A stretch of 64,000 nucleotides of DNA, from positions 15,335,013 to 15,399,012 of the forward strand of contig CM073324.1 of assembly GCA_037043015.1 (NCBI GenBank). The letters are read 5' to 3'. The translations under genes and the position numbers were made by a program. The notes under the pieces were generated by a model that saw only the letters and a program-made list of their open reading frames with translations, was not told where the DNA came from and made no database searches. Every line of letters starts with the position of its first letter. Position 1 is the stretch's first letter. This document shows, piece by piece, positions 2,040 through 57,000 of this stretch. This DNA is from Bryum argenteum. Lineage: Eukaryota; Streptophyta; Bryopsida; Bryales; Bryaceae.

Positions 2040-5000
2040 ATGATGGAGAGAGTGAAAGTGCATGTAAATAAGATCCCACGCTCGTGCACAAGTGTGGACC
2101 TGGTGGAATTGTTGGAGAGCGCCGTGGGCAAGGGGAGCGTGTACAGTGTGACCATCGTCAATAATCCCCAGACTGGCGAGTCCAGAGGATATGGCTTTGT
2201 TGTTTTCAACACCGAAAGAGCGGCTGATTCTGCGGTTATGCTGGGGGAGCAAGGCCTTCTGAATTTACTCAACAGCCAACTCCTTGTCAAGGTCGCTGAT
2301 CGTGGCATTATAAAACGGCCTCGGCACTCTATCACTACTTGGGAAGATGTACGCCTTCTTTACTCCACTTGCCCAATGATCTGCAAGCCCTTTATGTATC
2401 TATAAGCTGCGAGCATTGTAATCATCTTGGTGTCTCTTGACAATGTGCTCTTTATGGCTGGTTACCACCTCTATCTATTCCTGCACATCTGGTTCAATGA
2501 ACTAGTTGCCCATTTTGAATTAACGTTTCTTCGTGTGAGCAGGGCAAGCTGTACTTGAGCTCTGTCGTTTCTGAGACTGAAGCAGTTTGGCAGTGGTCAT
2601 CAAACTCAAATGTGACCACCGAGTTTGACTTCCCCGGTGGAAGAGTGCAGTTTTTGGTTGATGTAATGCACAAAGGAGAGAAGCAGCATTATAGAATGGA
2701 CAGCGCGTTTGAAGAGATCGAGAGTGTCAAGTTTGCTGCAGTTGAGCCTGCTCCTACTCGAGCCTTGTTGCTGCAGGTGATCAATCAACCTTTCACCTTC
2801 TTATCGTTTCAATATCGGCTTCATCTTTTTCACCCCTGAATCTCAATAATCTCATTATTCATGTTAGGATTCGGTGTATCCACATGGTAGCTATTTCGTA
2901 TTGGTGGTTGACCCTCCAGTTTTTGGCATCCTTATCGAGCGTCTTCTAAGTATTGAAGGTGTTGGTGGTTCATATGTGTAGCTGAGGACTCCACCTTACC
3001 TCTATGAGCAAAGAGCAGTTAAATTCAAGTCGAGGGACTTCTTATGCGACCTTTTTTCAGATACAACCCCTGCGGATGATCCTTACCACTTGTGTACAGA
3101 GGAAGAGGAGGTATGGGTTCGAACGGTGGACTTCACTCCTCAGAAAAGCATCAGTCAATGCCTTTCTTACGTACTCGTGCTTCCACTCCACAGAACAGGA
3201 GAAGACATGAACGACCTCTTCAAAAAGCTTGCACAGTTTCAGTTGGCGGCTCACCCGCCTTTGATTCAACGACTCACTCTTCGGTCGGGTCCATCTTTTG
3301 CCACCTCTCAGGTGCTTGTGCCATTAGTGGAACCACCCGCAGGGGTAAAAGTCGGATTTGACCTTCTTTTCAAAGTGAACCAGCTCGTGCAATCCTCAAA
3401 GCTCGTGGGAGGAACTCTCGACTCTTCCTTCTACCAGTTGCTTCAACCAAATGTTACGCCTAATGTACATGCGATGTCAATTTTGGAGAACATTCGGAAA
3501 GGAGTCGGTCCCTGCTTTGAGCCTGCTAAGGAAATCGAGCAACAGAAGAAAATGCTTGCGAACGTGGACGCTGTTTCTATCAAGCTTGCACCAGGCTTGA
3601 GCTGGGTGCGCAGAGTCCTTGTCACCCCAACAAAGGTTTATTGTACAGGACCAGAGGTTGATACTTCAAACCGTGTTACACGCCATTATTCAAGTCACGC
3701 GGATCGTTTCTTGCGGATGTCATTTGTAGATGAGAATATGGAGCCTTTAATGTCCAATGCTCTCTCAGTGCCAACAAGAGGGGGAGCTCAAGCCGGTGTT
3801 GAGGCTGAAAGGTCACTTGTCTATGACCGAATCTTATCAGCTCTAAAACAAGGCTTGGTCCTGGGAGGTTACAGGTAACACTCATCTTTTAACCTTGCAT
3901 TCTTCTCAACTGATCGTTGCAGAATAACTGATTATGATATTAGGAACGTTCGGAGGGTAATTGTATCAAATCTTTTAGATACAGTTATTGTGTTTCATAT
4001 CGGAGGTGGACGTATGTGGAATGTGATTTCAAGATAGGTATTTGACTTCAAGATGGCGTTTTTGGGTCAGGTTTGAGTTTCTGGCGTTTTCATCCAGCCA
4101 GTTGAGGGAACAGTCTGTGTGGATGTTTGCTTCCGATGCAAAGCTGACAGCCGCAGATGTAAGGAAGTGGATGGGGGATTTTCTCAACATTCGGAATGTA
4201 GCTAAGTGTGCTGCACGTATGGGGCAGTGCTTTTCATCCTCGACACCAACCCTGGAAGTACAGAAGTATGAAGTTGATGAGATTCCGGATATTGAAAGAG
4301 AGGATGAGTTTGGAATGGGCAAGTACTGTTTCTCGGATGGCATTGGAAAGATATCCAAAGAATTCGCCACTGAGGTTGCCAAAAAGTACGGTGCAAAGAA
4401 CAAGAACCTCTCACCAGGGATGGTGCCATCTGCTTTTCAGATCCGGTATGGAGGGTATAAGGGTGTGGTGGCAGTGGATCCACACTCGAAGGCCAAACTT
4501 TCGTTACGCCCAAGTATGCGAAAATTCGATTCAGAGCATGTGAATCTTGAGGTTCTGAGCTCCTCTCGGTTCCTCCCCTCGTACCTGAATCGACAAATTA
4601 TCATGCTTTTGTCTACACTTGGAGTGAAGGACTCCGTGTTTGAGGAGCTGCAACAGCGTATGGTGACTAAGTTGGATGATATGATGAAGGATGCGGATGT
4701 TGCACGAGATGTTCTGCAGGTATCTATCGCTCCTCGTGCTTCTTGGGGCCCTTTTCCAATTGTTTAGCTATGAGATTGCTCAATCACCCTTCATAAATGA
4801 ATCTCACAATTTATTTACTTCGGTACTTTTGAGTGTTAACCTTGATATAGGATTCAAAGTACTTAGTGAATGTTCTTGCTGGAGTGTAGATGAATCATTC
4901 AGGCGGGATGCACACGAGATTGATAGCGATGCTGGCAGCCGGGTATGAGCCACATAGGGAGCCTTACGTCAAGATGCTGCTGGAAGCGTTTCGAGCATCT

Positions 5001-6608
5001 CAGCTGTTTGATTTACGGACAAAGTCTCGTATTCTTGAGCCGAAGGGACGAGTGTTGATGGGGTGTCTTGATGAAACGAAAGCTCTTTCTTATGGCGAAT
5101 GCTTCCTGCAAGTTACAGCCGCTCCAGGGCGGAGGGGAGGACTGAAAGATGGGCTAGAGAACTTTGATGCACATCCAGCGGGTCCCGAGGCAACTGGGAA
5201 TTTAGCACATGTAGTTGAAGGTTGGGTTGTTGTTGCGAAGAATCCGTGTTTGCACCCAGGGGACGTCAGGAAACTCAAGGCAAAAAACGTTCCTGGGCTT
5301 CGGCACATGGTGGACTGCTTGGTGTTTCCTCAAAAGGGCCACAGGTCGGGAAAGGCCGTCTTATTCCGTTTTCTAGGGCATCATAGTTACACTTACTGAA
5401 AATGAAGAGCTTCTTGTATGTTTCATATTAATTAGTATGTAATACGTTTGGTCTGTGGTGGGGCTTGATTGCAGGCCACATCCGAATGAGTGCTCGGGAA
5501 GTGACTTGGATGGTGATCTGTATTTCGTGAGCTGGAATGAAGACCTAGTCCCTGCCAAGGCTGACGACCCCGTCGATTACTCTTCCCCCGGAGCGAGGAA
5601 TCTGGATCATCCCGTCACAATTGAGGCAAGCCACTTGCATTGACACTAGGAGGGTTTTGGTCGTGGTAAACTTGAGCTGTCTACAGAGGTCTTCGTATGA
5701 TTACATGGCTGTGTTATAGGGATCACTGACCAGGTTTGAGTCATGGTTTATGATGCCATCTGAAGTTCCTGGAACGACGAAGACCAGTTTATATTTATTG
5801 ATGTGAGATTTTGGTGGTTATGATTCAGGAAATACAAGAGTTTTTTGTCAAGTACATGGTATGCGACAGCTTGGGCGTAATTTCGAACGCACACGTTGTG
5901 CATGCTGACAGTCAGCCAGCCATGGCACGCAGCTTCGAGTGTCAAGAGCTCGCAAAGCTGGTGTCCATAGCGGTAGATTTTCCGAAAACAGGAGTGCCTG
6001 CTATCATCCCACAGAACCTGCGCCCCAGGAGTTATCCAGATTTCATGGAAAAGAACGAGGAGAAAGAAATGTATAAATCAGAACGCGTGCTTGGGAAGTT
6101 GTTCCGACAGGTGAAGGCGGCGTCCATGGAGAAGATGCCGTGCGAGACGTCCAGGCACGATATCGAAACGGCCTTCGATCCCGACATGGTGGTGGATGGG
6201 TTTGAGGAGTTTATGGACATGGCTAAGTATCACAAGAACCTGTATGACCGGAAGCTCATTGGATTGATGAACCAGTATGGAATCGAAACCGAGGCGGAGG
6301 CTGTGAGTGGAAACATTTTAAACTTGGCACGACAGCATGCACGCCGGAAAGGGGATGTCATAGACAGGATCAAGTATGCAGTGAGCTCCTTGATTGATGA
6401 AGCCAGGCAATGGTTTGAGAGGAACGCTGATGACTTGGTGGACGATGACATCAATGCTAAAGCCTCGGCGTGGTATCATGCGGCATACCATCCTGCGCAT
6501 ATCAAGCACTGTACAAATGGGAGTCGTGAGGTCCATCTTTTGAGCTTTCCCTGGGCAGTTCATGATGTTCTTCTCCAGATCAAAAAATCGAATGGCCGTC
6601 CCTGCTGA
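2040..6608 (+). CDS. RDR: RNA-dependent RNA polymerase, alpha (RDR1/2/6) clade
   Basis: Copies single-stranded RNA into double-stranded RNA that Dicer-like enzymes cut, feeding siRNA silencing and antiviral defence (family knowledge). Seven exons fit by eye: 2040-2348, 2543-2776, 2982-3874, 4071-4719, 4890-5344, 5475-5625 and 5829-6608. They join in frame to about 1156 residues, a normal RDR length. An N-terminal RRM-like domain (about residues 2-90) has RGYGFVVF as RNP1. The RdRP core ends in ECSGSDLDGDLYF, whose DLDGD (about 857-861) carries the catalytic aspartates of the alpha clade. The C-terminal helix-rich part contains ASAWYHAAYHP, typical of RDR1/2-type proteins. The start is the first ATG in the RRM frame; a second ATG follows at once. 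Intron 6 (5626-5828) begins GC, with GAG|GCAAGC fitting a GC-AG donor. No frameshift is seen, so it is probably functional. RDR1, 2 or 6 cannot be told apart here. Confidence 0.93.
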
Positions 6609-22620: not shown

Positions 22621-23791
22621 TTAGTTTGCAGATTGCTGCACTCTACAAAGCTCCAGGTTATACTCAGCTACATCGTACAAGGTGTGGCAAGTCTCGAGGC
22701 GGCCAGGATGACCAGATTCGCCATAGCCGGTCTCGCCGTAATGAATGTAAGAAGTTGCAGGGTGGGGATTCTGAGCCATGTTCATGTGCCACAGGGGCTC
22801 CCCGTGACAGTCCCACAGAGGCTCCACTGAGAGAATGGAGGTGGGCGACATGGGGTTGATGCACTGGGAGCTTCCACTGTGGTTGTCATCTTGACTGGAA
22901 GAACTCGGCGATTCCGCCGCTTGGAAACTGCCTGGGGCCACGTTCCAGAATTGCTGCGACCTCTGCACGAATTCATGTGGTATCAGTGGCGGCCTCGAGG
23001 TATCGAATTGTGTTGCTGCCGCTCTCCAGGAGCTCAGAAACGACGATGAATCTTCGACTCGCTTGGAGCTCGAGCTGCTGCTGCACAGGCGCGCCTCAGT
23101 CTCCATGCGCACCCTGTCCCACTGCGACATGTGACTCTGAGCTGATGACACCAAGCCTGTCTGGACCTCCAGATCGATCGTATCCGTCGACGACCTGCAG
23201 GGCTTGTGTGTCACTGGATCGATCCCTAGTTGCAGTAGCCGCTTCTTCAGATGCGTGTTCCAGTAGTTTTTGATCTCGTTGTCAGTCCGCCCCGGCAAAT
23301 GCGCTGCTATCGTCGACCATCTACACATTACACAAATCCACATCAGCGACTTACTTTCGTAGACTGTAGCTAGCTAGTAAGAGCACTTGGATCGATGCAG
23401 TTACCTGTTTCCGAGGATTGAGTGCACGTGAACAATCATCTGGTCTTCAGCATCGGAGAATCGACCTCGCTTGATATCAGGCCGCAGATAGTTCGTCCAT
23501 CGCAATCTACAGCTTTTGCCACACCTCAACAAACCTGCACAATCATGTTTGCAACTTATCAATACCGAAATTTGCATTCACACATTCAACCGTGACATTC
23601 TTCAAAACTGAACATCGATACCCACCTGCATTCTTCGGGAGAGCTCGCCAACTCCCGTGACCGTGCTGTTGAATGTACGCGACTAATTTGCGATCCTCAT
23701 CTGGAGTCCACGGTCCTCGTCGAAGAACCGTCTGCTGCTCAACAGCAGCAGTAGCGGCAGGAGGATCACTACAACACGGCGCTCGTCCCAT
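22621..23791 (-). CDS. R2R3-MYB transcription factor
   Basis: A DNA-binding regulator of the plant R2R3 class. Three minus-strand exons, 23,626-23,791, 23,405-23,534 and 22,621-23,320, join in frame to 331 residues. The protein opens with MGRAPCC, the signature start of many R2R3-MYBs. R2 (about residues 24-75) has the W residues in [15 protein letters not shown] and LRWTNYL. R3 (about 76-127) has RW and NYW, with I in the usual position of its first Trp, as is normal for plants. The intron positions, within R2 after PKNAG and early in R3 after GNR, are the common ones. Between MGRAPCC and the repeat lies an unusual alanine-rich insert of about ten residues. The C-terminal half is Ser/Asp-rich and low complexity, likely an activation or regulatory tail. 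Subgroup not assigned. Intact. Confidence 0.95.
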
Positions 23792-40205: not shown

Positions 40206-41063
40206 GATAAGATCTGAATTGTAGAAATATTCTCCAAAATGTTGTTGGTAACAATGTGAACAAAATGACATGAGAATTAATGTGAGTGATGACATAAAAC
40301 TTTGTCAATATAGACATGATAATAAATAGAGTTATATGCCATTACAGACATTAATCCCTTATATCATTTTGGTCACGTCGTTACCAAATTTTTGGACAAT
40401 ATTTCTACTAGACAGTGAATGTGTGCCTCATAATAAAGCATTTTCAAATTGTTCCATATATGGAAGACATCATGTGGTAATTTTCACAAATAGAATAATC
40501 GTGAGCCCTGTATGAGAAATAATCAAGTAAATATTCACAGGCGATTTTCTCCACATGGATGATTCTGAATGTAGAAGTTGCACATACACGAACGCATCCA
40601 AGGTGCTACTCTTGGACACATAACTGAACTAAATTAAATATTCTGAATGGGGGATACTATGTCAAGTATCTATAAGGCACTAGTAACTAGGCTAGAAACT
40701 AGCGTAGTTATAGTGTCCACCCTCGAGAGGGGGAAGTAGTATTGTTCTAATTTCCCCTTGTCCGGTGGCCATCGGGATATTAGCATTACAAACGGACACT
40801 TCATTCATTCACGCCGACCCCTTAGAAAGGGATCGGAGTTTCTATCTATGTTTAGAATGGTCCGAAGCCGAAGCAGGATCCGACGACTATTTTAAACAAT
40901 ATCTGTTTGATTGGATCCCGCATCAAATCTGGTATTGTGTTGAATATTGCTTAGTTTAAGTTTATTTGCAAATATGATATTAATACAAGTTTGTGATGGT
41001 TTCAAAAGATTGTATAGTATGTGGTAACTTCTAATACAACAAAGCCTACTGAAAACTAATAAC
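40206..41063. other. intergenic; contains an organelle-like patch
   Basis: 40,690-40,945 is GC-richer and unlike its surroundings, with an open frame (40,765-40,959) containing DPLERDRSFYLCLEW. The style is reminiscent of plant organellar DNA, but I cannot name a gene. The rest is AT-rich. Confidence 0.35.
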
Positions 41064-41458
41064 AACCTCAATTCTGTTAAAATAATAGTATTAGGGCTCG
41101 TGTTATTTTGCCAAAGGTAGTTCTCATGTGCCATCTTGGTCGCGCTCTAAGACATTCCATTTTACACGCATATTTTTTAATAACAATTTAGAATATTTAT
41201 GCTTGTATGGCACGTTTTTTAATATCAAGCATGTTCTTTGTAATATCAATTGATATTTGCATTATCAACTCATATATGTAATATCACCAAAATTTCCATA
41301 ACATCACACACTTTTATGATTTCGGACCTTTGAACGTGGTCAAAAGGCAATATTTATGAAGTTCCGTTGTTGTTTTTGAACAAGAGTTTAGATACATTTG
41401 CCCTTCAATGATATAAAAAATTAACACAAATGAATGTTATTTTTTCATTTTAAGCACC
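41064..41458. mobile_element. left half of an AACCTCAATTC-family MITE
   Basis: It begins AACCTCAATTCTGTTAAAAT like copies 1 and 2, then stays AT-rich to the left end of the giant element. The matching right terminus, ending in AGAATTAAGGTT, lies at 53,180-53,234, beyond the giant element. The flanks TAAC and CAAC are a near 4-bp target duplication. Confidence 0.65.
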
Positions 41459-41484
41459 GGGTGGAAGCATGCTAGGGTGGATCA
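41459..41484 (+). repeat. left terminal inverted repeat of the giant element
   Basis: Twenty-six bases starting GGGTGGAAGCATGCTAGGGT and ending ATCA. They are exactly inverted at 53,154-53,179, and no other copy was noticed in the window. Confidence 0.9.
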
Positions 41485-41845
41485 GTTTTGGACAAGTACT
41501 TGTACGTCATTTGTACACAAAATCAACGGAGTTGGCCGGCCTTGGATCCAGAAGTACTTGAGGTACTCCAGACTAAAATTAGGTGAACTACAAGCCGCTG
41601 AGTTCGCGCTTTAAACCCTGTCGATGTGATTGGCCGCCTTTTTTTTATTTTGGCTGATACGCGCATGATTTGAAATCTATTTCCGATGTGGCGACCGGCG
41701 ATCACCTGTCTCGGGGGGAGGGGGAACCGGTGGCAGCCGGTAAGTACCGTGGGAGCTATTGGCGGGAACCTGTGATGGCTGGTGCGGAGGGGTCGTCTCG
41801 CACCTCTCGCTGTGGAGAGTTACCAGCGCGCCATTGTTTTTGAAA

Positions 41846-42400
41846 TTTTGCGAGGGATTTTGAGGGTTGTGAGATGTTTTGCGAGGTTTGTGCGAGGGTT
41901 TGCGTGGATTTGCGAGGGTGAGGGTTTTTGTACTCCAGGGTTTGCGAGGGTTTAGGAGGGTTTGCGAGAAGTGTTTGTGCTCCTTTGCTACTGAGGAGTC
42001 TTAGTGTTGCTTTGTCTCGAGGGTCGTAGTGTTCGTTTGCCTCGTGGGTAGTTTTGATGAGGGTGTACAAAGCTGGTGAGTGAAGTGAGTGTCTAAGGCT
42101 GGTGAGCGAGGGTGCGAGTTGAGGGTGTCATGCTGTGGAGAGTGTGCTTTTCAGAGTCTGGTTTTGAACTTTTGCGAGGTTTGTCGATGCGCAGGAGGGT
42201 CTTACTGTGTCTTAGTTTTTAGCAGGGTGTACGAGGCCGGTGAGCAAGGTGAGGGTTAAATGCTGGGGAGCGAGAGTGCGAGGTGAGGGTTTTAGTGAGC
42301 GAGGTGAAGGTGTACTGTTGGTGGGCGAGGTGAGAGTGTACTGCTGGTGGGCGAGATGAGGGTTTAGGGTCTGTGAGCAAGGCGAGCGTGTGAGCGAGGC
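41846..42400 (+). repeat. G-rich degenerate repeats in the 5' region of the element
   Basis: 41,846-41,966 repeats TTTGCGAGGG-type words (GAGGGTTTGCG). 42,236-42,370 repeats GGTGAGCGAGGTGAGGGT-type words and GTGTACTGCTGGTGGGCGAG. The block precedes the first plus-strand coding exon and is probably promoter or 5' leader. Confidence 0.7.
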
Positions 42401-42519
42401 TGCAAGGCAAGGATTTGAGTGCTCCGACTTTCGGAGATTTTTCTTGAGTGTGTAGGGTGTTGGAAACTTGCGGGTTTCTGGGGTTTTTGGGATTTTCTGT
42501 GTTGCAGGTGTGATACAAG

Positions 42520-44325
42520 ATGACGAGGATGAAGCACACACCTGTTTTGCCGAGAGGAAAGCCTGGGGGGTCTCCCGAGAAGACTGTCGCGAAGGCTGTC
42601 TTGAAGGCTGTCCCGAAGGCTGCCTCCAAGCCTGCCTCCAAGGAGTCCAAGCCCTCCAAGGGTACCTCAAGCTCGAAAGGAGGGTTGGATGCAGCCTCGA
42701 AAGGAGGGTTGAATGCAGCCTCAAATGCTAGTGGGGAGCCCGACAACGAGCAGGAGCCTGACGAAGTCCTCGAGGTTGATAGAAGCGATTGCGATGAAGA
42801 CCTCGACCTGGTGGATGTCGAACATGCTATAGAGAAGTGCAGGCAACCACCTGCTAAGCTTTTAGTGGACGACTGGGTCAACAAGTTCGGGCTTGTGGGG
42901 GAAGGGTTGAACCCCAAACGATTTAGCAAGACATTCATGGATCCGAAGTTGATGGAGAAGTTCTTCGGCAAGCGAGCAGGGAGAGATGGGCGCTCTGGGT
43001 ACAAGTACCAGGATTGCGCTAACAAGGAAGTAGTGGCGAGGATTTTCGAGCTGCATCCCATAATCTACCAGCACGATCGAGACCACATGCCCACGCACCT
43101 GAAGGTCAAGTTTGCGGAAGGGATAGTCTACGAGTTCGAGAACGGCTGCGGGTCAGTAAATTGGGCTGGGTTTGCGCAGGTGGTGAACAACACGCAGCGG
43201 GTGAGGAGGGGTACAAAATTATGCAAGCTCGAGGAGTGCAAGGAGAATGGAGTTACGAAAGTGAGCAAGGAGGTGCTCAAAAAAAAAATTCCAGAAAGAG
43301 GCGGTTCTTCGATCTCAAAGAAGGTGAGACTGTTTGATTGGCAATTCTGATTGCTTGAATGCATTGAATGCTTTTACATGCTTGAATGTGTTGAATGGTT
43401 GAATGCTGTGAATGGTTTTGTTAGAATTGGATTTGAATGCTTGAATTCTTGAGCGGTTTAGGGTTTTTGCTTGCATTTTCCGACGTAATTGGTGTTGTTT
43501 GAGACCATGGCGGGATGTTTCGAGGTCTCCGCCTCCCGCATTCCTACTGAAGCAAGAAGAGGATTTGGGTGCATCCACGGAGAGAGGATTAAACGCCTTA
43601 CAGAATTGGCAAGAATCCTTGGACTTGAGATTGGGGCGAGAAAAGCTGCTCAGACCTCAACCACGCAACGCATCGCTGCTGGGAGGAGTGAAGTAAGGGC
43701 GATGGAGGTCAACGTGGCCCATCTCGAGGAGCGACTTGCGGTCCGAGAGCGGATGCGTGGGATGACAACGAGAATGCAAAATGGGAGATTATGGCACATG
43801 AGAGGATTTTGAAAAGAGTTCATATCCAATTTGAAGAAGCAAAAGCCGTTGTCCTCCAAGCAGAGGGAGAACTAGAAGAGATTGAGGGCCGGATAACAAA
43901 CCAGCAACGGGAGTTGGCCGCCATCAACGAGGAGGCATCACATTTGAAGTTTGGAGGCCGGCCCTCTGGATTGGACCCATGCCCGATGTTCTACCCACAA
44001 CAAGCTGCAGATGATGGCGTAGTGTCGATATCTGTGACGACTTGTGTGTTTTGCAATTTTCCATTCCCAAATTGTGATATTGTTGTATCAAGCTGCAGGC
44101 ACGTCTATCACCCATGGTGTGCTTTTGTAGTCTTCTCGAAAGGTTTTCGGTGTGCTCTGAGAACATGCGAAGCACGAGCACATCCAAGCTGGCATCAAAG
44201 CTTTGGATGGGGGATTCCGTCTGAAGAGATGGTACAAGGGGCTGCCAAGTGTGACATGGATGGTGAATTGCAGCATCTTTTGCAGCTTCGAGAGGAGAAT
44301 GTGAAGCAGCACCCATTGAATGCGG
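42520..44325 (+). CDS. element cargo: basic Lys/Ala protein with coiled-coil and RING-like domain
   Basis: The first exon, 42,520-43,323 (268 codons, donor AAG|GTGAGA), starts at an ATG. It encodes a Lys/Ala/Ser-rich basic head, an acidic stretch, then a globular part containing PTHLKVKFAEG and FENGCGSVNWAG. A second block, about 43,500-44,325, encodes coiled coil (QAEGELEEIEGRITNQQREL) and a cysteine/histidine cluster (TCVFCNFPFP, then SCRHVYHPWC) that looks like a RING/PHD-type zinc site. It ends at a donor near 44,326. Between 43,690 and 43,790 the reading frame switches, so an unrecognised intron or a frameshift must lie there. Whether both blocks form one gene is uncertain. Similar coiled-coil plus Cys/His proteins are, as I recall, multicopy in mosses. 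Confidence 0.55.
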
Positions 44326-44543
44326 GTATGTTTTTTTTTCAATTGCTTTATTTTAATGTGTGTGCAGGGTAGACATGTGTTGGAGGGTGCATGTACCATT
44401 TTGAAGGTGAAACGTTGGTACTTGTAATTTTGGAGGTATGCTTGTGTCCAAATGTGCTAATGAGTACGTCTGAGGTGAATTGGATATTCACAGAAAGTTT
44501 TAAGGTAGCGAGATTAATTGTGAGGTAGAACCGAAGGTACGCT

Positions 44544-44699
44544 GGTAGTAGTTCGGCTGAGTAAGGTAACCAAAGTTGTGTAATGGGTACTTGCTGGTAG
44601 TAGTTCGGGTGAGTAAGGTAACCAAAGTTGTGTAATGGGTAGTTGCTGGTAGTAGTTTGGGTGAGGAAGGTAACCAAAGTTGTGTAATGGGTACTTCCA
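44544..44699 (+). repeat. 52-bp tandem repeat, three copies
   Basis: Units start at 44,544, 44,596 and 44,648 with GGTAGTAGTTCGG and contain GGTAACCAAAGTTGTGTAAT. They are nearly identical, so recently made. Confidence 0.92.
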
Positions 44700-45060
44700 T
44701 TGTACTTAAAAAATAGATATGAAACTGTTTATGTAACTTAGGTACAGCCGTAGTGACATTGGAATACATTAGTACATTACAGTGCGTAGTGAGAGATAGG
44801 AGGTACTCTGTACATGCATAGTGTGTACTCCAGGGTACACATTTGTGTATACTATGTGTATAGTGTCACTCTTTCTGTGTAGTTTGTACCGTCCAAGTGA
44901 AAGTAGTATGTCGAGCAACACAGTGTACAACATGACTACTTCAGTACTAATTCTTCAGAGTATTTTGCATTTATAGATCAGGTGTATGTATTTTGGTTGT
45001 TTGTGTTGGTTTTTACGTATTCAGTTTTATACCCTGTCTAACGCACTCCAATGTGAGATT
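44700..45060. other. GTAC-dense spacer 1
   Basis: About eleven GTAC words in 260 bases (44,690-44,950), where about one is expected. Non-coding. See the matching spacers at 48,040-48,260 and 50,500-51,080. Confidence 0.8.
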
Positions 45061-45080
45061 GGAATTCCAATGTTTTAGAC

Positions 45081-46451
45081 ATGCGAACGAAGCCCTTCAA
45101 GGCACCTCCGGCTGTAGACAAGACCAACAAGGGTAAAGCGGTAGAGTCACTTTGCCACGTCAAAGACCGAAAGGTGTAATGACCGCTGACACGAATGATA
45201 GGGTGAAGACGCCCCAGCAGCCATGTGAGGTCCATGTTGCAGGTACAGCGAAGGAGCATAAGGGTGTATCTCCCCGGGTGCATGTCATGAAGAAGAAGGG
45301 CGTTTCCCCACCTCAGCCATCAAGAAATGCAGGTTTGTAAATTGACATAATTCTTGATTATTGCATTGGCTACTTCATGCATTGACATGTAATGTACATG
45401 TTTCTGTATTACAGAGCTATTGAAGGGCATTCCGGCTCAAGAATCTGAGTCGGATGAGGATACAGCCTCCTCAAAGAGGGACGAAGGATCAGACGACAAA
45501 ATGGAGTCTGACGATGGGGGGGACTCGCCTAGCAGCCACGACGCGGGGGCATTTTCGCCCACTCAAGCAATGGAAATAGCAGGCGAGGACACGCCACTCG
45601 ACTCTCAGCAAGTGGAAGTAGTTGCAGCCGCCAAAGACGCGCCAGTCAAGTCTCAGCCTCCCCCCACCGAGGACACGCCCCTCAAGTCTCAGCCTCCCTC
45701 CACCGAGGACACGCCCCTCAAGTCTCAGCCTCCCTCCACCGAGGACACGCCCCTCAAGTCTCAGCCTCCCTCCACCGAGGACACGCCCTTCAAGTCTCAG
45801 CCTCCCTCCACCGAGGACACGCCCCTCAAGTCTCAGCCTCCCTCCACCGAGGACACGCCCCTCAAGTCTCAGCCTCCCTCCACCGAGGACACGCCCCTCA
45901 AGTCTCAGCCTCCCCCCACCGAGGACATGGACATGCCATTCATCTCTCTGCCTCCCCCCACCGAGGACATGGACATGGTACTCAGCTCTGAGCCTCCCCC
46001 CACCGAGGACATGGACATGGTAGTCGACATTCAGCCTCCTCGAGCCGAGAACATGGCAGTCAAGAGTGAGCCTCCTCGCACCGAGGACATGGCAGCCAAC
46101 ACTCAGCATCCCCCCGTTGAGGACACGCCAACGCAGGCCGCCCGTGCCGAGAGTCCAAAGGATTCATCCTCTCCCTCAAGATCAGCCTTCTACGTGCAGG
46201 AGCGAGAACCAGAGACCGAGGCGTCTCCAGTCGCGGGGACTCAGCCGAATCCAGTGGTCGAGGAAGCGTCGAGGACTAGGAAGACACGACCACGGCTGTC
46301 ACCATTGGATGCGCAGGAGGACCCTGATTTTGATACACCGATTCAGGGGAAGAAGCAAAAAATGAAGAATGTGAACGCCATACAGAAAGAAGGTGCCACC
46401 TCTCAGGGCACCACCAAGACGGTGAGCAAGAAGAAAAAAGGGAAGCGATAG
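45081..46451 (+). CDS. element cargo: acidic protein with 12-residue tandem repeats
   Basis: A first exon starts at 45,081 (MRTKPFKAPPAVDKTNKGKA) and changes frame near 45,140 to a frame running through KGVMTADTNDR to a donor near 45,332. The second exon, about 45,415-46,451, encodes an acidic Ser/Asp-rich start, then eight units of PPSTEDTPLKSQ (36-bp DNA unit), three units of PPPTEDMDM type, and a lysine-rich tail ending KKKKGKR that resembles a nuclear localisation signal. It is probably disordered. It ends in a stop, but a GTGAGC donor at about 46,422 could instead splice it to the SET exons, making one long chromatin protein. The tandem repeat accounts for the long antisense ORF, which I reject. 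Confidence 0.5.
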
Positions 46452-46599
46452 TGGGGGTGTCATGTATGTTATTTTTTGTTTTAAATATAGCGGTTTAGCG
46501 TTATTGTGTATTTGTGTATGATGATAAGTTTGTCACTTATTGTCACCAATTTTTTTTATAATTACAAAGCAATGTTTCACCTTCACTGATGACCCGCAG

Positions 46600-47767
46600 G
46601 CTACCTGGTTTGATCCGATTGACCTTACGAGGGGAATGGCGCCTCTAGCTGTATCAGTTGATGTGCCTGTGGAGGTTCAATGCCCCATGGCTCCGTTTGT
46701 TTACCTCGACACCAATATAATGTCTGCACAAGTTGTTGTGGATAATGAAAGAGAAAGTAGTTGTAATTGCTTTGGGCAGGATTGCACCTTGAACCCGGGT
46801 GCATGTGAATGCATCCAAAAGATTGGCGGAAATTGCGCCTATAACGGTGACGGTCACTTGCAGGAGGTTGATGCGAGCGAGGTATCCGAGGTACTTCAAC
46901 CTTCAACCTTTGTTTTTTTTTTTTTGATGTTTTTAGCTTGGGCAAGAATGTGCTAACAGTTTGCTTGTGAGGATTTCCCAGAACCAATATTGTAAACCGG
47001 GGGAGGGGTGTTACATTCAAGAGCAAACAAGCTCGTGGGACCCTCAAGATGGAATAGTAGTTTGCAGTGGACATTTTGGGAGGAAATTTATTTTTGAGTG
47101 TAACTTGACTTGTTTGTGTCGAGGTAGCTGTAGAAACAGGATTGTACAGAAAGGTGTGAGTTTAAAACTTAGTGTGTTTTGGACGGGTAAGAAAGGGTGG
47201 GTGCTAAAAACTTTGGAGCCCATTGCAAAAGGTCAATTTGTGTTAGAGTATCATGGTGAGATCTGTACTAACGCAGAAACAATGAGGAGGACGGCAATGG
47301 AAGATAGAAACGGGTGGTATGCGGTGAGCCTCGATGCAGACTGGAGAGCAGAGGCGGCCAGCAACGACTCCACAGCGTTAAACATTGATGGACTTATTTA
47401 CGGTAATGCGTCACGTTTCATCAATCATTGCTGTGATGACGCAAATCTTATCGACATGCCAGTGAGAATCGAACGCAGTGACCCACGTTTATATCATGTT
47501 GCATTTTTTGCAAATCGGAACATTGCGGCCTTTGAGGAACTAACATGGATATGTGCATATGTTAATTTAATCCATTCCTCGTTTCGGTTTCAGTTTATGC
47601 CTATTCTTGTCGTGTTTGTGAATGGGATGGAATTCTCATTGTGTTTGTGACTTTCCGGAATGCAGGATTATGGTACGCAGTGGCAGGGTGCGGAGACAGT
47701 GAATAGAATTTGTTATTGCGGTTCCCTATTCTGTAGAAATCCACCCCTTGCAAGAGTTCGGGAGTAG
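46600..47767 (+). CDS. element cargo: pre-SET/SET histone lysine methyltransferase
   Basis: Transfers methyl groups from S-adenosylmethionine to histone lysine; the pre-SET type points to H3K9 (SUV39/SUVR class, family knowledge). Exons: 46,600-46,881, 46,982-47,548 and 47,666-47,767. The pre-SET zinc cluster is visible as CNCFGQDCTLNPGACEC and later CNLTCLCRGSCRNR. The SET core runs from GWVLKTLEPIAKGQFVLEYH through NASRFINHCC (the usual NHSC Ser replaced by Cys) to EELTW, continued by DYG in the next exon. The post-SET CYCGSLFC follows before a stop. The N-terminal start is not defined; an acceptor CAG precedes 46,600, so upstream exons, perhaps 45,415-46,421, are likely. The donor after EELTW reads ATATGT instead of GTATGT, so correct splicing to the last exon is doubtful and read-through would truncate the protein. 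Confidence 0.75.
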
Positions 47768-48035
47768 CCTTTGTACTAGTTTCTGCCTTAATCTAACAGA
47801 GGGAGCAGAACCTTTACCATTCGAAAAAATTGCACCGATGCCATTCTGTGAATGATTGTGTTTGAAGGATTGTGTCTGCAGCAGGGCCCGGCTCACGCTG
47901 TAATTGTTCTTTTCTAAAGCAGCAGCTACAACTTGCCATAAAGTAAACAAAAAACCGTCATAAGTGTTGGTAATATTGGCACCATGTTGATGTGGCCTCT
48001 CTCTCATGGAACAGTTCCATTCACCATCCTTTAAG

Positions 48036-48260
48036 AATGAACTTTTATACAGAGTACTAGAAAGTACTTCGTGCGTACTTCATACAGATGTCTACGAGAT
48101 TTTTGTACAAATAGGTACAACAATGTAATTGAAAGGAACCACCTTGTTACTGAGTGTATGCAAAGTGGACGACATGTACTCAGAGTGATTATAAATGAGA
48201 ATGAACTTTTATACAGAGTACTAGAAAGTACTTCGTGCGTACTTCATACAGATATTTCTC
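48036..48260 (+). repeat. direct repeat pair within GTAC-dense spacer 2
   Basis: About 55 bases, beginning GAATGAACTTTTATACAGAG, occur at 48,036 and again near 48,199. They contain GTACTAGAAAGTAC and further GTAC words. They lie between the convergent SET and transposase genes. Confidence 0.85.
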
Positions 48261-50513
48261 AAAGTACACAGCATATGCAGCTCAAACCAACGCCAATCCC
48301 CAACTTGGTGCACCTAACTAGCACTAGCACTCAACTTGTATCCTCTTCAGTTGCCCACCATGAAGAAAGAACTTGCTGGATCATTTCCATGGTCTCAGAA
48401 CTCATCTTGTAAACAAATTTATCACCCGCAACTATATGAGGAGCTAATATCATTGGAAATTTCAATGCCCTTACATGATGGGCAAAAATATGGGCCACCG
48501 GTTTTGAGTCCAAATAAACAAACGTGTTGGACCCTCTCCGTTCTTCCGATAGTAATATCCAAACCACGGCAAAATCTCCTTTCTCAAACTCTTCTCCCCA
48601 TGGGCAAATGAAATCTTCTTGGACCTCAAACTTGACTTTGTACACACTGGAGCACATAAAATTCAACCCCTTCGTCATTGCCCTCCATTGCCGGAATCAT
48701 GAAGTTGTCACCAACTGAGAAGAGCCGCATTCGAATCATTCTCACCGCCATGTAACCAATTATCGTGGATCATCATGAGCTTCGATTTGCTCTTGAGCAA
48801 TGACCACGTTTGTTGGTCTAAGACAAACTACCCGCCAATCTGCAACATGTGACTTCTGTTCACAACTAACCCACTCTTGATTGATGCAAGGAGCACAAAA
48901 ACATGACAAATCACGAACCATTAGCAGAGTAGGGTCAGTCAATGAACATCCAAATATACTATGGAATTGCCTAGATCCTGAAATTGTCCTACACTTCCAC
49001 TCATTGACTCTATTGACATCGCCAACACCAACATGCCAGAACACTCGTGATATGGGCACTTCATTAGAAGCATCTGATGAACTAGCAACTCGATGAGAGA
49101 ACTTCAAATTTAGAAATTCCACACATTGAAGTGCATTCGCTAATTCATACTCTGGGTGTTGGATTTGATGGGTCCTTAATGCCCTCTTCGCCACTGCTCC
49201 AGCTCCATCCCATTCTCCTGCATAAAAGGTATCACATTTTTAGAATCCGTTTTCAGTCCTCAAAATATTCTCAGGCCTACTAATGATAATTCGTATGCAC
49301 TCACAATAATTATGAGCTTCACTACAACAGCTACAGATCTCAATCACCAAAAGCAAATCTTCATGTGCAATGAAGTATACCTTTTCCATGGCCACTACCA
49401 AAAAAATTCCAGCGCATGGTGCATCCCAGCGAGGCCGGATACCGGGCCACAAAATACATGGCCCTTGACCCCTTGAATTGCCCCGCGCATCCGTCACTAT
49501 AGACCCAATGCTCATTGGGTTTTATACTACTGACCAACAACCATTTCGATGCAAAAAAGAAGGCAATCTTTGTACAAACAACGAATCATGTTTTTGTCAT
49601 CACTTATATAATAATGAGTGTGCTTGATTATGCCACCTTCCTCACCTTCACACGATGGGGGTGCCCTGTACAAGGTAATGTGCACAAGTATGGTTATTGA
49701 GGTACTAAACCAATGCATGGATTGTACCTCATTTTGAATAGCAAAGGTATAATTTTCTGCAAAATCGATGTGAGAGATTAACACACCATCAGGAACGTTC
49801 TCCATCATCTTCCTACATTCAGTATCTTGCCATGATGCAACAAAATTGTGGGTAACAAATTGTTGCACTTTTTTTTTGAAATAAGGTACAAACTCACCTG
49901 GAGATGTTTCCTTGAACACCTCTGTTATGCGCTTCTTTTCATAACCAGTTTCTTCATGCACCCCAATTACTTTCATTTCAAAACACCTCCACTTCATCAA
50001 AATATCAGTAGCAAGGGACAATTCTTGAGGACAGAAGTTTATATGATCGACACCACAATTCAAACATTGACCCATTAAACAATCAAGCTTGTGCCACTTA
50101 TCGAATTCCCCCTTTGGACACACACACGCTTGCCATAAAGAGGTGATGCGTTCGAAAGTATTGTCGGATGCACAACAATTATGACTTCCACTCCCACATA
50201 CCTCACACTTGCATATGCATCCTACATGGCAATTATTCCCCTTGGAGGTATCTCTGAATGTATTTAGAGCTTCCCTTAACAAATCCACTTCGACATGATA
50301 CACACAACAACAACTATTTTGATCCTTAAGAGTTTTTACATACCACGGCTTCAGGTATTCGAAAGAACGTTGCTTCAAGCGGCACTCTGGATGCGCTTCC
50401 TTGAAAGCGATAAACAATTGAGCCTCGCCACAAAATGCACGGTCGTAGTTACGACATCCGAGGATATAGCAATGATCACAATTTCGTACAAGAAAGTACA
50501 TTGAGTATAAAGT

Positions 50514-51080
50514 CTACACGCTTTTATGCGCCTTTTTTGCATTAAAATATACTCAAAGTACATAGTGACTGGATATGCTCCAGAACACTTCGTACAGATA
50601 GTACAACATACGAAAGCACTAATACTCTACTACCCTTTCTACCAACTTTGATATTTACAATAGACAGCATACTCCAAAGTACTCAGTTTCGTACATTGTA
50701 TACTGAACTTCCTACCAACTATACTAATAACACACAAAATCCACAAATTATGTAACCACGGTACTCTTCCCTATACTTAAAGCACTTCAAGAGTATACGA
50801 CGAGTACTTAGTGACCACAACATATGTACCTAGAATACCATGCTGTTAACTCAACAACTTCTACCACTACTGTGAACCACGCAGGTACACACACATTACA
50901 CACATTACACAAATTCTGCCAATGGAGTATCTTCATGAACATTACCAATACTATTAACACCTAAATTACATTTTAATTAGTACTTCAGTACAAACACTGA
51001 ACTCCACAGAATCAAGTGGCCAAGTGGGTACCATCCTAGGTACAAATACCATAACATTTACTCCGAGCTACCCCTTCTAC
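50514..51080. other. GTAC-dense spacer 3 (large transposase intron)
   Basis: About fourteen GTAC words in 570 bases, plus many TACT/AGTA words. It lies within the intron between the second and third transposase exons. Confidence 0.75.
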
Positions 51081-51528
51081 GCTTGAGGCCAACTACACAC
51101 TTGTATCACACATCACAGTCCAATTTCAAAAACAATACGATCCCTTTGAATGCATTTTAAAAGAGTAAGAACAATACCTGAGTGTCTGTGAGGTAATGAG
51201 TTGCGTGCACGATGTACTCATTCCTCCCTATACGACGTCGTGTCACATCTTTCTTGTTAGGAGACACACGAGATCTCCCGTGCCACCAAGCACGCACAGT
51301 TTCCTTCACGTAGGCAGACAGACCAACACGCTTTGCCCGCTCCAGAAGTTTGTATTGCTCCCGTACATCTACACATGTACTTCTCCTCTCTATAGCATTC
51401 AAAATATTCCGAGGATGCACCTGCACACAACTTTCCCTTCATCAACACATGCTGCAATTGAATTGAATGCTTCCTTCATGATCACACATCAACACACAAT
51501 ACGTTCATGCAGTAAACCACAATTCAAA

Positions 51529-51594
51529 CATGCAGTCAACCGAATCAACACATGCAGTCAACCGAATCAACACATGCAGTCAACCGAATCAAGT
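51529..51594 (+). repeat. 22-bp tandem repeat, three copies
   Basis: CATGCAGTCAACCGAATCAA plus CA, three exact units in the first transposase intron. Confidence 0.95.
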
Positions 51595-52337
51595 TTACAG
51601 ACGAAACCGTTTGTGATGCCCTCTGATCACCCACAACAAATTCTTACCCTAAACCTAGCCGCCACAGTTCATTACTGACATATTTGTGAATACTCACAGC
51701 ACCTGCGTGACTCCGCTTGCACCGCAATACGGCACCGAACAACTGGAACACACAAGCGAGTAGGATACTAAGAACGAACCTGTAACACCCTCGACAGAAG
51801 CCGTCTTGATTCAGTCCCTTCACTGACGGCCGCATCCAGAAGAACCCCCTTCCGCGCAAGAAACTCCTTCAACTGGGCACCTTTAACTGCTTGCAACTCA
51901 TTGCGATAACTCACAAGAAACGAGCATATCGATTTGGCCTCAGAAGGTCGTGGGTAATATTCCGGGAGCAAAGGCCAAATCCCGCTGTGGTTTAGGACCT
52001 TCTCGAGTACAGCGCTTTTACATGTCGGGGTATCGCAACGTTCCAACTCCTCCATGATATACTCTGCAAGCATGTTTGACCTCCGACTCGTCATCCGATC
52101 GCCCATTCCACTAGTTTCCACAGAACCTCGACTAGAGTGTCGGTTCATTTGCACACCCTGATCTCGCGCTGCTAGCCTTGCCCGATATGCCTGCATTCTT
52201 AGGCGCGAACCTTCAGCCAAGGTCGCACGTCTCACTTCAGCAGCTCCTGCGGCGTCCGCTCTTCTTTCAACAATAGCTCGTCTGATGCCAGGACGAGTTC
52301 GCTCCCGATTCCGTTGATTTCCCATCACTTCGCACAT

Positions 52338-53153
52338 GAAACTCAACAGCTATCTCAAAGCTTACAATGACCAACCCTAAGAAAAACCACTGCCTGCAAG
52401 AATGTGCAAAACCCTAAACCAACACCGTGCAGAATGTGCGACCTAAACCAACACCGGCAACACTGATCCCACCTGACATGGAAGCTCGTCTAGGGTAGAA
52501 CCCTAGATGCACCGGGTAAGGTTGACGTGGCCACATCGGATCCTGAGGCATTTAATGCCACCTCCAACGACATTTTCTATAACCAGCGGGGTCAGAGTAC
52601 AGTGAGTACGAAGAAGTATTGATTATTGATTTTCCCGCACTTCCTGCACAAGGACTTTGGCGCCAAAAATCAGGGATTCGCACCCACATGCATCTGCATA
52701 TTAGAATTCTAAGTATGTAGGGAAAAAAAAAAAAAAAAAATCAAAAAACATTAATTTTTGACTAACTTAAACCATGTCAAAGATTTAGCCCTTTGACCGA
52801 TGCAAATTGCTAGGAAATAATGAGTTTTTGGGATGTAATGATGAAATATGTTCATCATTACATTGCGCTCAATCTAACCACATAATTTTTTTTGTACTTT
52901 GTAACTTAATTTTAACCAAATTTGAGTACTTTATCACAATTTTGACTGCCGTAACGTACTTTTCTGAAAAACTTTGAGAGTAAAATCCTATATGTTCCAA
53001 AGGTTTTTGGCAAAAAAGGACAAGTGATTTGCACACTTAACGACTCCTTTTACCTAAGTTCTCAAAAACATTAGTACTTTGGATGGTGGAGGGGCCCAAG
53101 AAGGGCCCTAGAACAAGAAAATTTGACAGAATTAGAGGGCGTAACGTACTTTT
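52338..53153. other. right subterminal region of the giant element
   Basis: Upstream of the transposase start; likely its promoter. It includes an A-run (52,721-52,740), then AT-rich sequence with GTAACGTACTTTT at about 52,950 and again at about 53,140, next to the terminal repeat. Confidence 0.6.
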
Positions 53154-53179
53154 TGATCCACCCTAGCATGCTTCCACCC
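53154..53179 (-). repeat. right terminal inverted repeat of the giant element
   Basis: Exact reverse complement of 41,459-41,484. Confidence 0.9.
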
Positions 53180-53234
53180 CACCCCAAAACCCGCCATTTC
53201 ACGCGAATAAGGCCATTTTAATAGAATTAAGGTT
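53180..53234. mobile_element. right half of an AACCTCAATTC-family MITE
   Basis: The complement reads AACCTTAATTCTATTAAAAT, then GGCCTTATTC and GAAATGGC, matching the termini of copy 1 (36,869) over about 40 bases. Confidence 0.7.
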
Positions 53235-53263
53235 CAACCCATCAACAACTATCTCTACCACTC

Positions 53264-53763
53264 TTTACTATGTCACCTCCCTTATAAAATGGCTCTCCTA
53301 AAACATATATATCTTAGGGTGTTTGCTGTCACTCTTTCTTTAACCCAAACACCCAGAACGCATAATAAAAATATGTCATTATTGTAGTGTATAAACTATA
53401 AACCCCATAATTTAATCAACAATCATACAAATTGTTGAAGTTGTTGAAGTTGTCCATAAAGTCAAGAAACACCTTTGACTTAATAAAATAGTCATATGTA
53501 GTCTGTGCTCATATAATATTAACAACTAATAACTGTGTGCTTAGTGACTTCCGATCATATTTAGAAATTGAAATCACTAGGGTGGTAATCTCTTATGAGA
53601 TTCCTTTTTGATTTGATTAGATTATGAAAATTCACCAATACAAGCAATGTCAAGTCTTGTGGAGAGGGACATCTACCACAACTTAAATCTTATATACGTA
53701 GTGTCTGGAAGTCAAATGCTTGATCTTAAAAGAACATTCTATAAGGGAGGTGACATAGTAAAT
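53264..53763. mobile_element. 500-bp MITE with TTTACTATGTCACC ends
   Basis: TTTACTATGTCACCTCCCTT (53,264 on) is inverted at 53,736-53,763 with about 25 of 27 positions matching. The interior is AT-rich and non-coding. A word near its right end, GCTTGATCTT preceded by GGAAGTC, recurs at about 55,425, pointing to another related copy there. Confidence 0.8.
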
Positions 53764-54099
53764 AGTGAAATGGTGACCTTGGCTTTTAATTGATAACGAT
53801 GCACTTTCCAACACTACGTGCTTCTCCGCATTTATTGTTGAAGTTGTGTTCATGCTCCTATTTGTAATTAGACCGTTTTTTTTTCAAATGTGGAAATTAG
53901 CAACACTTAAATAAAAAAATCCTCATCTAAGATCATCCTTGCAATTCTGACACCAGATATACCAAAGAACACATGACAAATATACCAACAAACATGGCAT
54001 GGGGTCTCTGAATCTGCCAAAGAGAAAATTTCTTCCCATTCTCTTCTCTCTCTCATGGTCGCCAAGCCTTTGAGGTCATAGAACTCCTAGGTCACCATA

Positions 54100-57000
54100 C
54101 AACGCCAACTCTCATGCCTCTAGTTTAGAAAGCAAACCAACAACTTCTCTGAGCTTGCCAAGCTTCGTTCAAGCAGATCTACGATTGGACATTCATAAAG
54201 TACATGGCACGTCGTCTCTTTAAAATTATTGCGACGTAGAGGACATTCATATGTTTTTCTTAAGAGTCCTATGCAAGAGTTCCATGCACCTACTCAAAGC
54301 CTTTGTGCAATTGCAGCTTATCTTCCTTGGAATCCAATGGTGCCAAGAATGAGTAAAAAAATGCTTGCATTGTGTTATTTATTAGCCAAGCTCCACCAAA
54401 TGTATTTCAAGTAGGAGAGAAGTGCTTTGATTCCTCCACTTTATACAACAAACCCTCTTGGTTGTGTAATCTAAGAAATGAGTATTTTGCATAGAGGCAT
54501 AGAGCCTTGTCGCCTTTATTCCCATTTTTTTTTATCAAAACTCAAATCTCAAATACTATGTGATTCCAAGGTCTACAACATGTTGGACAAGAAAATGGCG
54601 CTAGGGCTGATGGGCAACATTTGGCAAGCTTTGGGTACCCTAGAGGACCGTCCAAGACCACTTTCAAGGGACCTCTTGGTCTTATTTTCCCTTTAAGTGG
54701 ATACTTTTGGCCTCTTAGATTGGAACAACTATTGTTAAGTAAGCTACATATCTTAGAGCACTCACTTTAATTGAGAATTCTCATTTTGGTTAGTTTTATC
54801 TTATTCGGATGTATCCTTTTATTGCAAATGCGAGAATTTGTCTAAAGATTGTCTGTTTTGATGAAAAGGAAGCCTTCTATACAAATAAACCTACAAAATT
54901 TTTCTTAAAACTCGTACACAAGATGTATTTGAAATTAAGCGACATTCTTGTCATACTAATAATAACCTCAATTCTATTAAAATAGCACTATTCCATGTGT
55001 CATTTTGTCACACCAAATCTTGCATTTGTACACGCACAGATTGTTGACTTCTCTAATATCTCAACTCCTTTTGCAACATCTTATGTACATTCTCACTCAT
55101 ATTCCATAATATTATCTTTAAATTTTATTATATGACATGGTATTTGAACTGCAATTGAGAAAGCTAAGATGTGCCACTTTAACGACATAATGCCATTTTA
55201 AAGAAATTGGGATTAAATGCAAAAAAATAAAAAAAATCACAACCATTAAATTATATACATTATATTTTTGGCAAAATTTCCCACTTGCCCTTAATCATTG
55301 AAAATTGGAAACTATAAATTACTTTTTTGGATATTTTTGTTCTTTATATCTCTATTAAAATGCCCTTGTAAAATTTGATAAGTAATGTGTTCGAGTCTTA
55401 TATATACTTAGTGACCGCACTCCGGAAGTCGAATGCTTGATCTTGAAAGGACAAATAAGGAAAGAAGAAAAATAGTTTAGTGTCCTTTCCGAGATATCCA
55501 AAGCTTGCAATTGCCTCAATGCTGATAACTTTTCCGGCAGTAGAATGTAATACAAGAATTACACATGCCTCATGAAGTTCTTGTGTTGAAATTGGAAGTA
55601 GAGATGGAAACAAAGAAATGAATTTACCCAAACCATGATTTGGTCCAAATGTATAACTCAACCATTTATCATTCACTAATTTGTCAAGCAAATAAAACAT
55701 TGGGAGTGTTGGAATTGTCCAAGAGGAAACAAGCCAAGTACCACACTCCAATGAAGTCGATTGTATTATGTTCAACTCTTGACATGTATCTTAAACTTCT
55801 AATGTGAGCTGAGAGATGCGATGCGATAAGAACGTGTGATCATGTAATAAGCATTATGCGGTGGGAAATGACTCCTTTTGTCATCCAAGATATCTTCAAC
55901 AAATAACAATCCCTTATTAGCCCAATTTAGAAAACAAGATTTCCTTTGCACTCCTATAGGAGAACCGTTTGTTGAGCATAAAAGCCGATTCAAAAATAGC
56001 AAATGTCGTTATTGCTCCGCTAAGAATAGTTGGAGGTAGCGTGTGGAATTGTGGATTCCCTCTTTGACCGAGGACCATGCACTCCATACTGCATTTCACA
56101 AAGCACAAAGCTCATCCTTAAGGCGAGTACAAGTGTACAACCAACATATAGATTCTCTGCAATCTTCATCACGCGTAAGCCCCGAGGGAGAGTAATGAAA
56201 GGCAGAGACAAATAAGAATGTTCCAAGATTCATTTGGGATCAAGGCTCCAGAAGACCAGAAATAAGCTTCGCTAGCAACACCTTGGTTTGAGCAAAGGGA
56301 TCAAATACCTTCAATTCACTTTTGATTGTAGAGATAATTACTATGTTCCATGGATGCCACATGTGCCTGAGCTTTAGGGTTTGCTTTGCCACTTTAAATA
56401 AAACTTCAAACGAGCGTACGTTCTTAGAGGAGGACACCCTTGGAAATGTCACAACAAGGAGTGAAGTAAAAAATATATGCCAAAACCATTTGGTTTGAAA
56501 CCAATATCTTAGCTGCAAGATATAAACATTTATTGGACAAGCTATTAAATTTATTGGAGACTTAGAACAACACCTTGGCATCCCTATCTTTTTGATGGAG
56601 TTCAACACTAAAGGAGAAACCCAAGTATCTTGTTGATTCTCCTGACTTAAGGTGTTTAAGACCTCAATGATCAAGGAGATTGAATATCGAGAAAATGTTT
56701 TACTTCTCAAACTTAAGCTTTGCACCGAAAGCCAATGAGAACAACTTTACGACCATAAATTAAAGCTCTTGAAAGATTCTCCTCATTTCCTTGTAAGAAG
56801 AGTGCGGTGTCATATGCGATGCTCTAAATTCTAATTGTGAAATTGATATGAAGTACCATCCTATGTACATCATAACTAGGATCATTAAGCATGTGACGAA
56901 GCATGTGGAAGATGAATAGAAAAAGGTTGGGTGCCAATGGGCACCCCTGTACAGAACAAAAAATCTCAAACTTCTCTAAACATTTGCAGTTCATCAGCAA

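Follow-up and report, generated by a model that had tools for sequence, protein, structure and literature searches.

The element described here occupies positions 41459-53179 of a 64,000-nucleotide stretch of the moss Bryum argenteum (assembly GCA_037043015.1, contig CM073324.1; C4:15335013-15399012 in our numbering), referred to throughout as the window. This 11.7 kb unit begins and ends in perfect 26-bp inverted repeats, has CACC immediately outside each end, and is coding on both strands: the minus strand carries a multi-exon transposase-like gene (exons T1-T6), and the plus strand carries a run of exons that specifies, in order, a conserved domain termed P1, a coiled coil, a RING-like domain, an acidic repeat, pre-SET, SET, and post-SET (Table 1). 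A preliminary description of the same sequence had placed the perfect inverted ends, a possible CACC target duplication, a gene of transposase type, a protein with pre-SET and SET, and a repeat-rich basic/acidic protein within one bounded unit; all of these are borne out, the last as an acidic stretch. Its further proposals, that the unit is a composite transposon, that it holds at least three blocks of cargo, and that no such plant system has been described, are taken up below.

Ends, target duplications, and empty sites

The B. argenteum genome searched here comprises 258.8 Mb in 25 contigs. With up to three mismatches allowed, the 26-bp end word occurs in it 129 times in forward and 135 times in reverse orientation, whereas the reversed pattern, used as a control, has no match in either; because 264 matches stand against none, chance is ruled out as their source. 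For pairing, 46 end matches were taken among 100 listed, and 44 of these resolve into 22 elements that span 0.80 to 27.1 kb. An exact 4-bp target duplication of variable sequence flanks 21 of the 22 paired copies, the remaining copy agrees in three of four bases, and none of the 22 has a duplication of 5 bp or more. Four copies of 0.80-0.85 kb resemble miniature inverted-repeat transposable elements (MITEs); such short copies, with ends but without genes, are the expected non-autonomous derivatives of a larger element. Elsewhere in the genome (C9:3764751-3794185), one transposon end is repeated four times with identical adjoining bases at a spacing of about 9.8 kb, which probably reflects tandem duplication of a segment with an insertion inside it.

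Empty sites were sought by joining the flanks of individual copies. For the window copy, matches that cross the junction were recovered at 38 other places among 40 matches listed (72-77% identity), the other two being its own flanks, and a single CACC is present in two aligned empty-site repeats, which confirms the target duplication. For a second copy, C3:5165225-5178108, the joined flanks match across the junction in 40 of 41 matches listed (92-97% identity), with a single TGCC in three aligned places. The inverted ends, the duplications, and the single 4-bp word at five empty sites together identify the unit as a DNA transposon that inserted with a 4-bp target duplication and that presumably moves by cut and paste. 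The searches that the preliminary description had suggested, with the 26-bp end (264 matches) and with the transposase (129 matches), also revealed that the window unit belongs to a large, diverse transposon family. The term "composite" does not apply, since no second element bounds the unit in the region examined (40500-54200); within the same region, no repeat of at least 20 nt other than the 26-bp ends joins the two ends.

A transposase-like gene and a standing RING-SET gene

The transposase-like gene retains long frames in divergent relatives (632 aa in L033 and 560 aa in L030; locus numbers are our own labels). An alignment of nine copies features an invariant set of cysteines and the motif DFAENY, whose aspartate is invariant in 9 of 9 rows, and the aspartates of SDGC and DGAGA are identical in all five of the nine rows that reach them. 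We read these three conserved aspartates as a putative DDD triad. The transposase exons gave no credible match to Pfam, and no usable match was obtained in a profile search of the Protein Data Bank or among viral contigs and prokaryote genomes, collections that contain no eukaryote genomes.

The genome-wide survey rests on 129 matches to the transposase query (129 of 364 candidates scored), 156 matches to a first SET query (150 of 327 candidates scored; the 150 listed were used, some being fragments of one gene), 27 further matches to a second, more divergent SET query that were chosen by eye as new, and 150 RING matches listed (150 of 325 candidates scored). The first SET query alone places a SET sequence within 10 kb of 89 of the 129 transposase matches, tail-to-tail in all 89. 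Both queries together raise this to 98 of 129, again tail-to-tail in every case (98/98), although SETs may still be missed among the matches listed, as that of L033 was before the second query was added. When the transposases were shifted by 200 kb, 500 kb, -300 kb, or 1 Mb, a SET lay nearby in only 1, 0, 0, and 1 of 129 cases, respectively. The association extends across the range of transposase identity, with a SET at 7 of 7 loci at 85% or more, 30 of 33 at 70-85%, 31 of 41 at 60-70%, 7 of 9 at 54-60%, and 23 of 39 below 54%. Likewise, a RING match lies within 15 kb of 82 of the 129 transposases, 80 of them tail-to-tail (4, 1, and 1 in shift controls), and a SET lies within 8 kb of 105 of the 150 RING matches, with the RING upstream on the same strand in 104.

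Finer inspection of 20 loci of 10 kb each (L009-L028) recovered SET and T3 in all 20, RING in 16, and P1 in 15, in a single order. Among divergent loci, L030 has P1, RING, pre-SET, and SET; L029 and L033 have RING and SET; L031 has SET only; and L032 has P1 and RING only. Overall, the RING/SET part is a standing second gene that faces the transposase tail-to-tail, not one-off cargo, and it has long been carried by the family. The supposed cargo blocks of the unit are probably exons of this one gene.

Selection was estimated as median NG86 omega over pairs with a synonymous distance (dS) of 0.02-1.5; these pairs are not independent, and the usable numbers were 37 of 210 for SET (the other 173 being saturated or too close), 57 of 190 for pre-SET, 21 of 136 for RING, 29 of 168 for P1, and 110 of 210 for T3. 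Within the second gene, median omega is 0.21 for SET, 0.27 for pre-SET, 0.26 for RING, and 0.40 for P1; within the transposase it is 0.32, 0.09, 0.15, 0.13, 0.21, and 0.20 for T1 through T6. Over 25 loci, pairwise distances correlate between transposase and SET (0.87), transposase and RING (0.75), transposase and P1 (0.70), and SET and RING (0.95), and for none of these did any of 2000 permutations reach as high a value. The second gene has therefore diverged together with the transposase gene under purifying selection. Because its catalytic motifs are also kept, we consider the SET domain to be in use.

Only SET (3.7e-17) and pre-SET (2.9e-9) pass Pfam cut-offs in the second gene. The pre-SET, SET, and post-SET regions, with NHxC, the tyrosine, and DYG present, have the features of a SUV39/G9a-type lysine methyltransferase. 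The NHxC motif survives in 20 of 21 copies, and 18 of the 27 SET matches above 300 bits, among the matches listed, are free of internal stops. The solved structures nearest to the SET domain are EHMT2/G9a (3e-32), SETMAR (1e-31), SUV39H2 (1e-29), and SUVH6 (2e-26); the structure entries for EHMT2, EHMT1, and SUVH6 are named as H3K9-specific, and SETMAR we take to stand near H3K9-type writers. The domain is accordingly described here as a predicted H3K9-type lysine methyltransferase. Two long-frame genes that are SUVH-like by eye, L034 and L035, score about 99 bits against the element SET profile and are presumably host genes.

With respect to exon structure, P1, coil, and RING all fall in one 649-aa frame in L030, which rules out P1 and RING as separate genes. 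The stretch from the acidic exon to pre-SET was compared in 19 copies of the L009-L028 subfamilies; in those read through, the acidic exon ends in a conserved donor that joins a conserved acceptor in phase 0. Since a stop a few codons beyond this donor, after a basic tail, is mostly conserved too, P1 to SET probably form a single gene that can end in either of two ways. For the last SET intron, a GT donor is present in 18 of 19 copies, and 14 of the 16 copies in which the next exon was located have an AG acceptor. A near-palindrome, GATAAGT...ACTTAT, was noticed by eye between the acidic exon and pre-SET (window 46520-46545); the same stretch occurs in other copies, including one that lacks SET (L036), and a role as a splicing or RNA-end signal is possible.

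Over aligned DNA, the window copy shares 94.4% identity with L009 and 93.6% with L025. Relative to these and other copies, which stay open at the same points, small indels interrupt the frames of both its transposase and its coiled-coil/RING part, and its last SET intron no longer has a donor. The copy is thus decayed and unlikely to be autonomous.

Table 1. Parts of the window copy, in window coordinates.
Feature	Position	Strand	Basis or remark
Target-site duplication CACC, left	41455..41458	.	CACC present once in each of two aligned empty-site repeats
Left 26-bp terminal inverted repeat	41459..41484	+	264 genome matches vs 0 in control
P1 exon, conserved domain without Pfam match	42520..43323	+	Exon end judged by eye
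Coiled-coil and RING-like exon, frame broken here	43525..44325	+	Compared with L009 and L025; ends judged by eye
Possible small exon, no clear frame	45079..45332	+	By eye, window copy alone
Acidic exon containing tandem repeats of 36 and 42 bp; ends in a splice donor	45415..46421	+	Donor compared over copies
In-frame stop after acidic exon if unspliced	46449-46451	+	Stop compared over copies
Pre-SET exon	46600..46890	+	Pfam Pre-SET 2.9e-9; acceptor phase 0; end by eye
SET exon with NHxC, Tyr, EELTW; donor of following intron lost here	46960..47548	+	Start approximate
Last exon, with DYG of SET and post-SET cysteines	47666..47767	+	
Transposase C-terminal exon T6	48331..48696	-	Ends approximate
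Transposase exon T5, third conserved Asp, W-D-G-A-G	48760..49217	-	Motif in other copies; ends approximate
Transposase exon T3-T4 with Cys cluster, DFAENY, SDGC; frame broken here	49381..50430	-	Ends approximate
Transposase exon T2	51178..51420	-	Ends by eye
Transposase exon T1, protein start	51780..52325	-	Ends by eye
Right 26-bp terminal inverted repeat	53154..53179	-	
Target-site duplication CACC, right	53180..53183	.	

Other features of the window include a direct repeat of 56 bp, identical in its two copies (48034-48089 and 48198-48253), in the interval that separates the two genes and, just beyond the right end, a 33-nt inverted repeat (53259-53291 / 53735-53767; 94% complementary, 443 nt apart) that is possibly another MITE. 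Frames resembling an RNA-dependent RNA polymerase (2982-6608) and an R2R3-MYB protein (22621-23373) were recognized by eye and point to a land-plant host.

Relation to described transposons

The systems compared here are drawn from excerpts of the papers cited. Sola transposons have a DDD transposase, generate 4-bp duplications, carry terminal inverted repeats of 11-1124 bp, and occur in Physcomitrella while being apparently uncommon in flowering plants (PMC10741241); a Sola1 entry for Physcomitrella is tabulated (PMC9033089), and Sola2 is likewise described with 4-bp duplications (PMC3627910). The moss host, the terminal inverted repeats, and a size that can exceed 10 kb are shared with the present family (PMC10741241, PMC9033089). 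Its exact 4-bp duplications in 21 of 22 paired copies, together with the empty sites, and its 26-bp ends fall within the Sola description, and the three conserved aspartates, if they form the putative triad read from the alignment, would fit the stated DDD type. The present family carries a RING-SET gene, which goes unmentioned in the excerpts of these descriptions (PMC10741241, PMC9033089, PMC3627910). On these features, we propose that the family is probably related to Sola.

Harbinger elements duplicate 3 bp and MuDR elements 8-10 bp of target, the AcademX transposase has an XPG-type nuclease domain, and the anti-silencing protein of Vandal elements is VANC, not a SET enzyme. The closest counterparts with respect to the second gene are the HarbingerS and MuDR families of Phytophthora, which have incorporated SET methyltransferase genes (PMC12730594, citing Kojima and Jurka, Repbase Reports 2014) and, like the family described here, are DNA transposons with a gene for a SET histone lysine methyltransferase. 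Those families belong to other superfamilies and have oomycete hosts, whereas here the host is a plant, a RING-like domain and an acidic part accompany SET, the duplications are of 4 bp, and the transposase has no Pfam match. Membership in HarbingerS was rejected, despite the presence of SET, because no Pfam transposase model matched and the duplications are of 4 and not 3 bp. AcademX, with duplications of 3 or 4 bp (PMC10045372), was set aside because no nuclease match was found in the transposase exons given to Pfam.

Other systems join a DNA transposon to an epigenetic function. Fungal DNA transposons bear TET/JBP (PMC12730594), likewise an epigenetic enzyme as an extra gene, but theirs acts on methylated DNA rather than histones and their hosts are fungi. 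Plant Vandal (MuDR) elements carry an anti-silencing protein (PMC12730594); they are plant DNA transposons whose protein steers their own epigenetic state, as is proposed for the present family. SETMAR of primates also has a SET domain adjoining transposase sequence (PMC8994322); it is a single domesticated host gene, whereas here the gene belongs to a mobile family. Among the open-licence papers listed by the literature searches, none describes a SET gene in a DNA transposon of plants. The claim of an undescribed plant system agrees with this result, but SET-bearing Harbinger and MuDR elements of oomycetes are, as the excerpt relates, already published (PMC12730594).

What the RING-SET gene may do

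Taken as a whole, the data are best explained, in our view and with moderate confidence, by a two-gene DNA transposon whose RING-SET protein would lay down self-directed H3K9 methylation. The protein would act in trans on the element's own chromatin, and the resulting H3K9 methylation would keep most copies quiet yet viable, such that the parasite sets its own silencing rather than leaving it to the host. Splicing, to judge from the conserved splice sites, would add the SET domain, and the unspliced form would end in a short basic tail. More tentatively, a large lineage of DNA transposons in plants may have carried its own predicted H3K9 writer, joined to a RING-like module, since before its subfamilies diverged to about 50% protein identity, as a self-restraining parasite with self-made heterochromatin and a SET domain that is added or omitted by splicing.

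Several observations weigh against the favored explanation. First, the RING-like domain, which the preliminary description had recognized and which recurs here, stays under the Pfam gathering cut-off (best E 5.8e-4 in the window, and 0.0013). Second, constraint on the acidic and coiled-coil parts is weak (median omega 0.44 each), and omega is near or above 1 in several recent pairs (RING 1.39 for L023-L024 and 1.02 for another pair; SET 1.01 for L013-L027), which is expected because copies are decaying. Third, conservation extends to the stop immediately downstream of the acidic exon, so that SET may instead be a gene of its own or belong to an isoform that is rarely made. Fourth, for 31 of the 129 transposase matches no SET within 10 kb is among the matches listed, although 5 of these 31 have a tail-to-tail SET within 30 kb. 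One such locus, L036 (67% transposase identity), retains the coil, RING, and acidic part, but about 34 residues (E 0.002) are all that is left of its pre-SET and SET itself is absent, which reads as a secondary loss; a SET within 10 kb is likewise lacking at eight further transposase matches of 67-68% identity, two of which have one within 20 kb. In L032 (44%), P1 and RING are present and SET was not found by profile. Given these 31 transposases with no SET close by, and the apparent secondary loss in L036, SET is not indispensable; L036 and the eight matches further indicate that it is unneeded for spread, at least given help in trans. Ends without genes (the four short copies of 22) and transposases without SET (31 of 129) are both outcomes that the preliminary description had regarded as contrary to a single unit; both occur, and the association of the two genes stands.

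Four alternatives were considered. A possible though somewhat unlikely one is counter-defense, in which RING, as a ubiquitin ligase, or SET, through misplaced marks or the methylation of a silencing factor other than a histone, would weaken host silencing. Vandal proteins of Arabidopsis weaken host silencing by other means, and H3K9 writers serve silencing in plants. That the nearest relatives of the SET domain appear to be such writers speaks against counter-defense; the retention of RING and acidic parts where SET is lost (L036), and of P1 and RING where SET was not found (L032), speaks for it, as does the existence of plant transposon proteins that steer the silencing of their own element (PMC12730594, in excerpt). 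It is less likely that the gene serves target choice or safety after integration, with a SET protein that makes or recognizes H3K9-methylated chromatin and so directs insertions into heterochromatin or repeats: both insertions examined for an empty site do lie in dispersed repeats, but these are two sites only, the empty-site test works only in repeats, and SET-less copies have spread as well.

We disfavor, as distinctly improbable, a pure passenger, that is, a SET gene captured by an ancestor that has since hitchhiked and decayed without function. The window copy is broken and SET was lost in at least one locus (L036), as a passenger would predict; against it stand the median omega of 0.21 for SET and 0.26 for RING, the catalytic residues and intron sites that are retained, and divergence in step with the transposase. 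Finally, the chance that host SET genes merely lie beside unrelated transposases, or that the arrangement is an assembly artifact, is negligible; nothing was found in favor of either, given one orientation in 98 of 98 cases against 0-1 of 129 in shift controls (which rules out a host SET gene beside the transposase), the 4-bp duplications, and the empty sites.

If the enzyme of the favored reading, self-directed H3K9 methylation, is active, the family bears on an old question of host-parasite chromatin biology: does a transposon profit from encoding the very mark that normally silences transposons? SET-bearing and SET-less relatives within one genome provide a ready comparison. Transposon-borne SETs may also account for many extra SET genes in this moss (156 matches, some of them fragments), and annotation could count them as host regulators.

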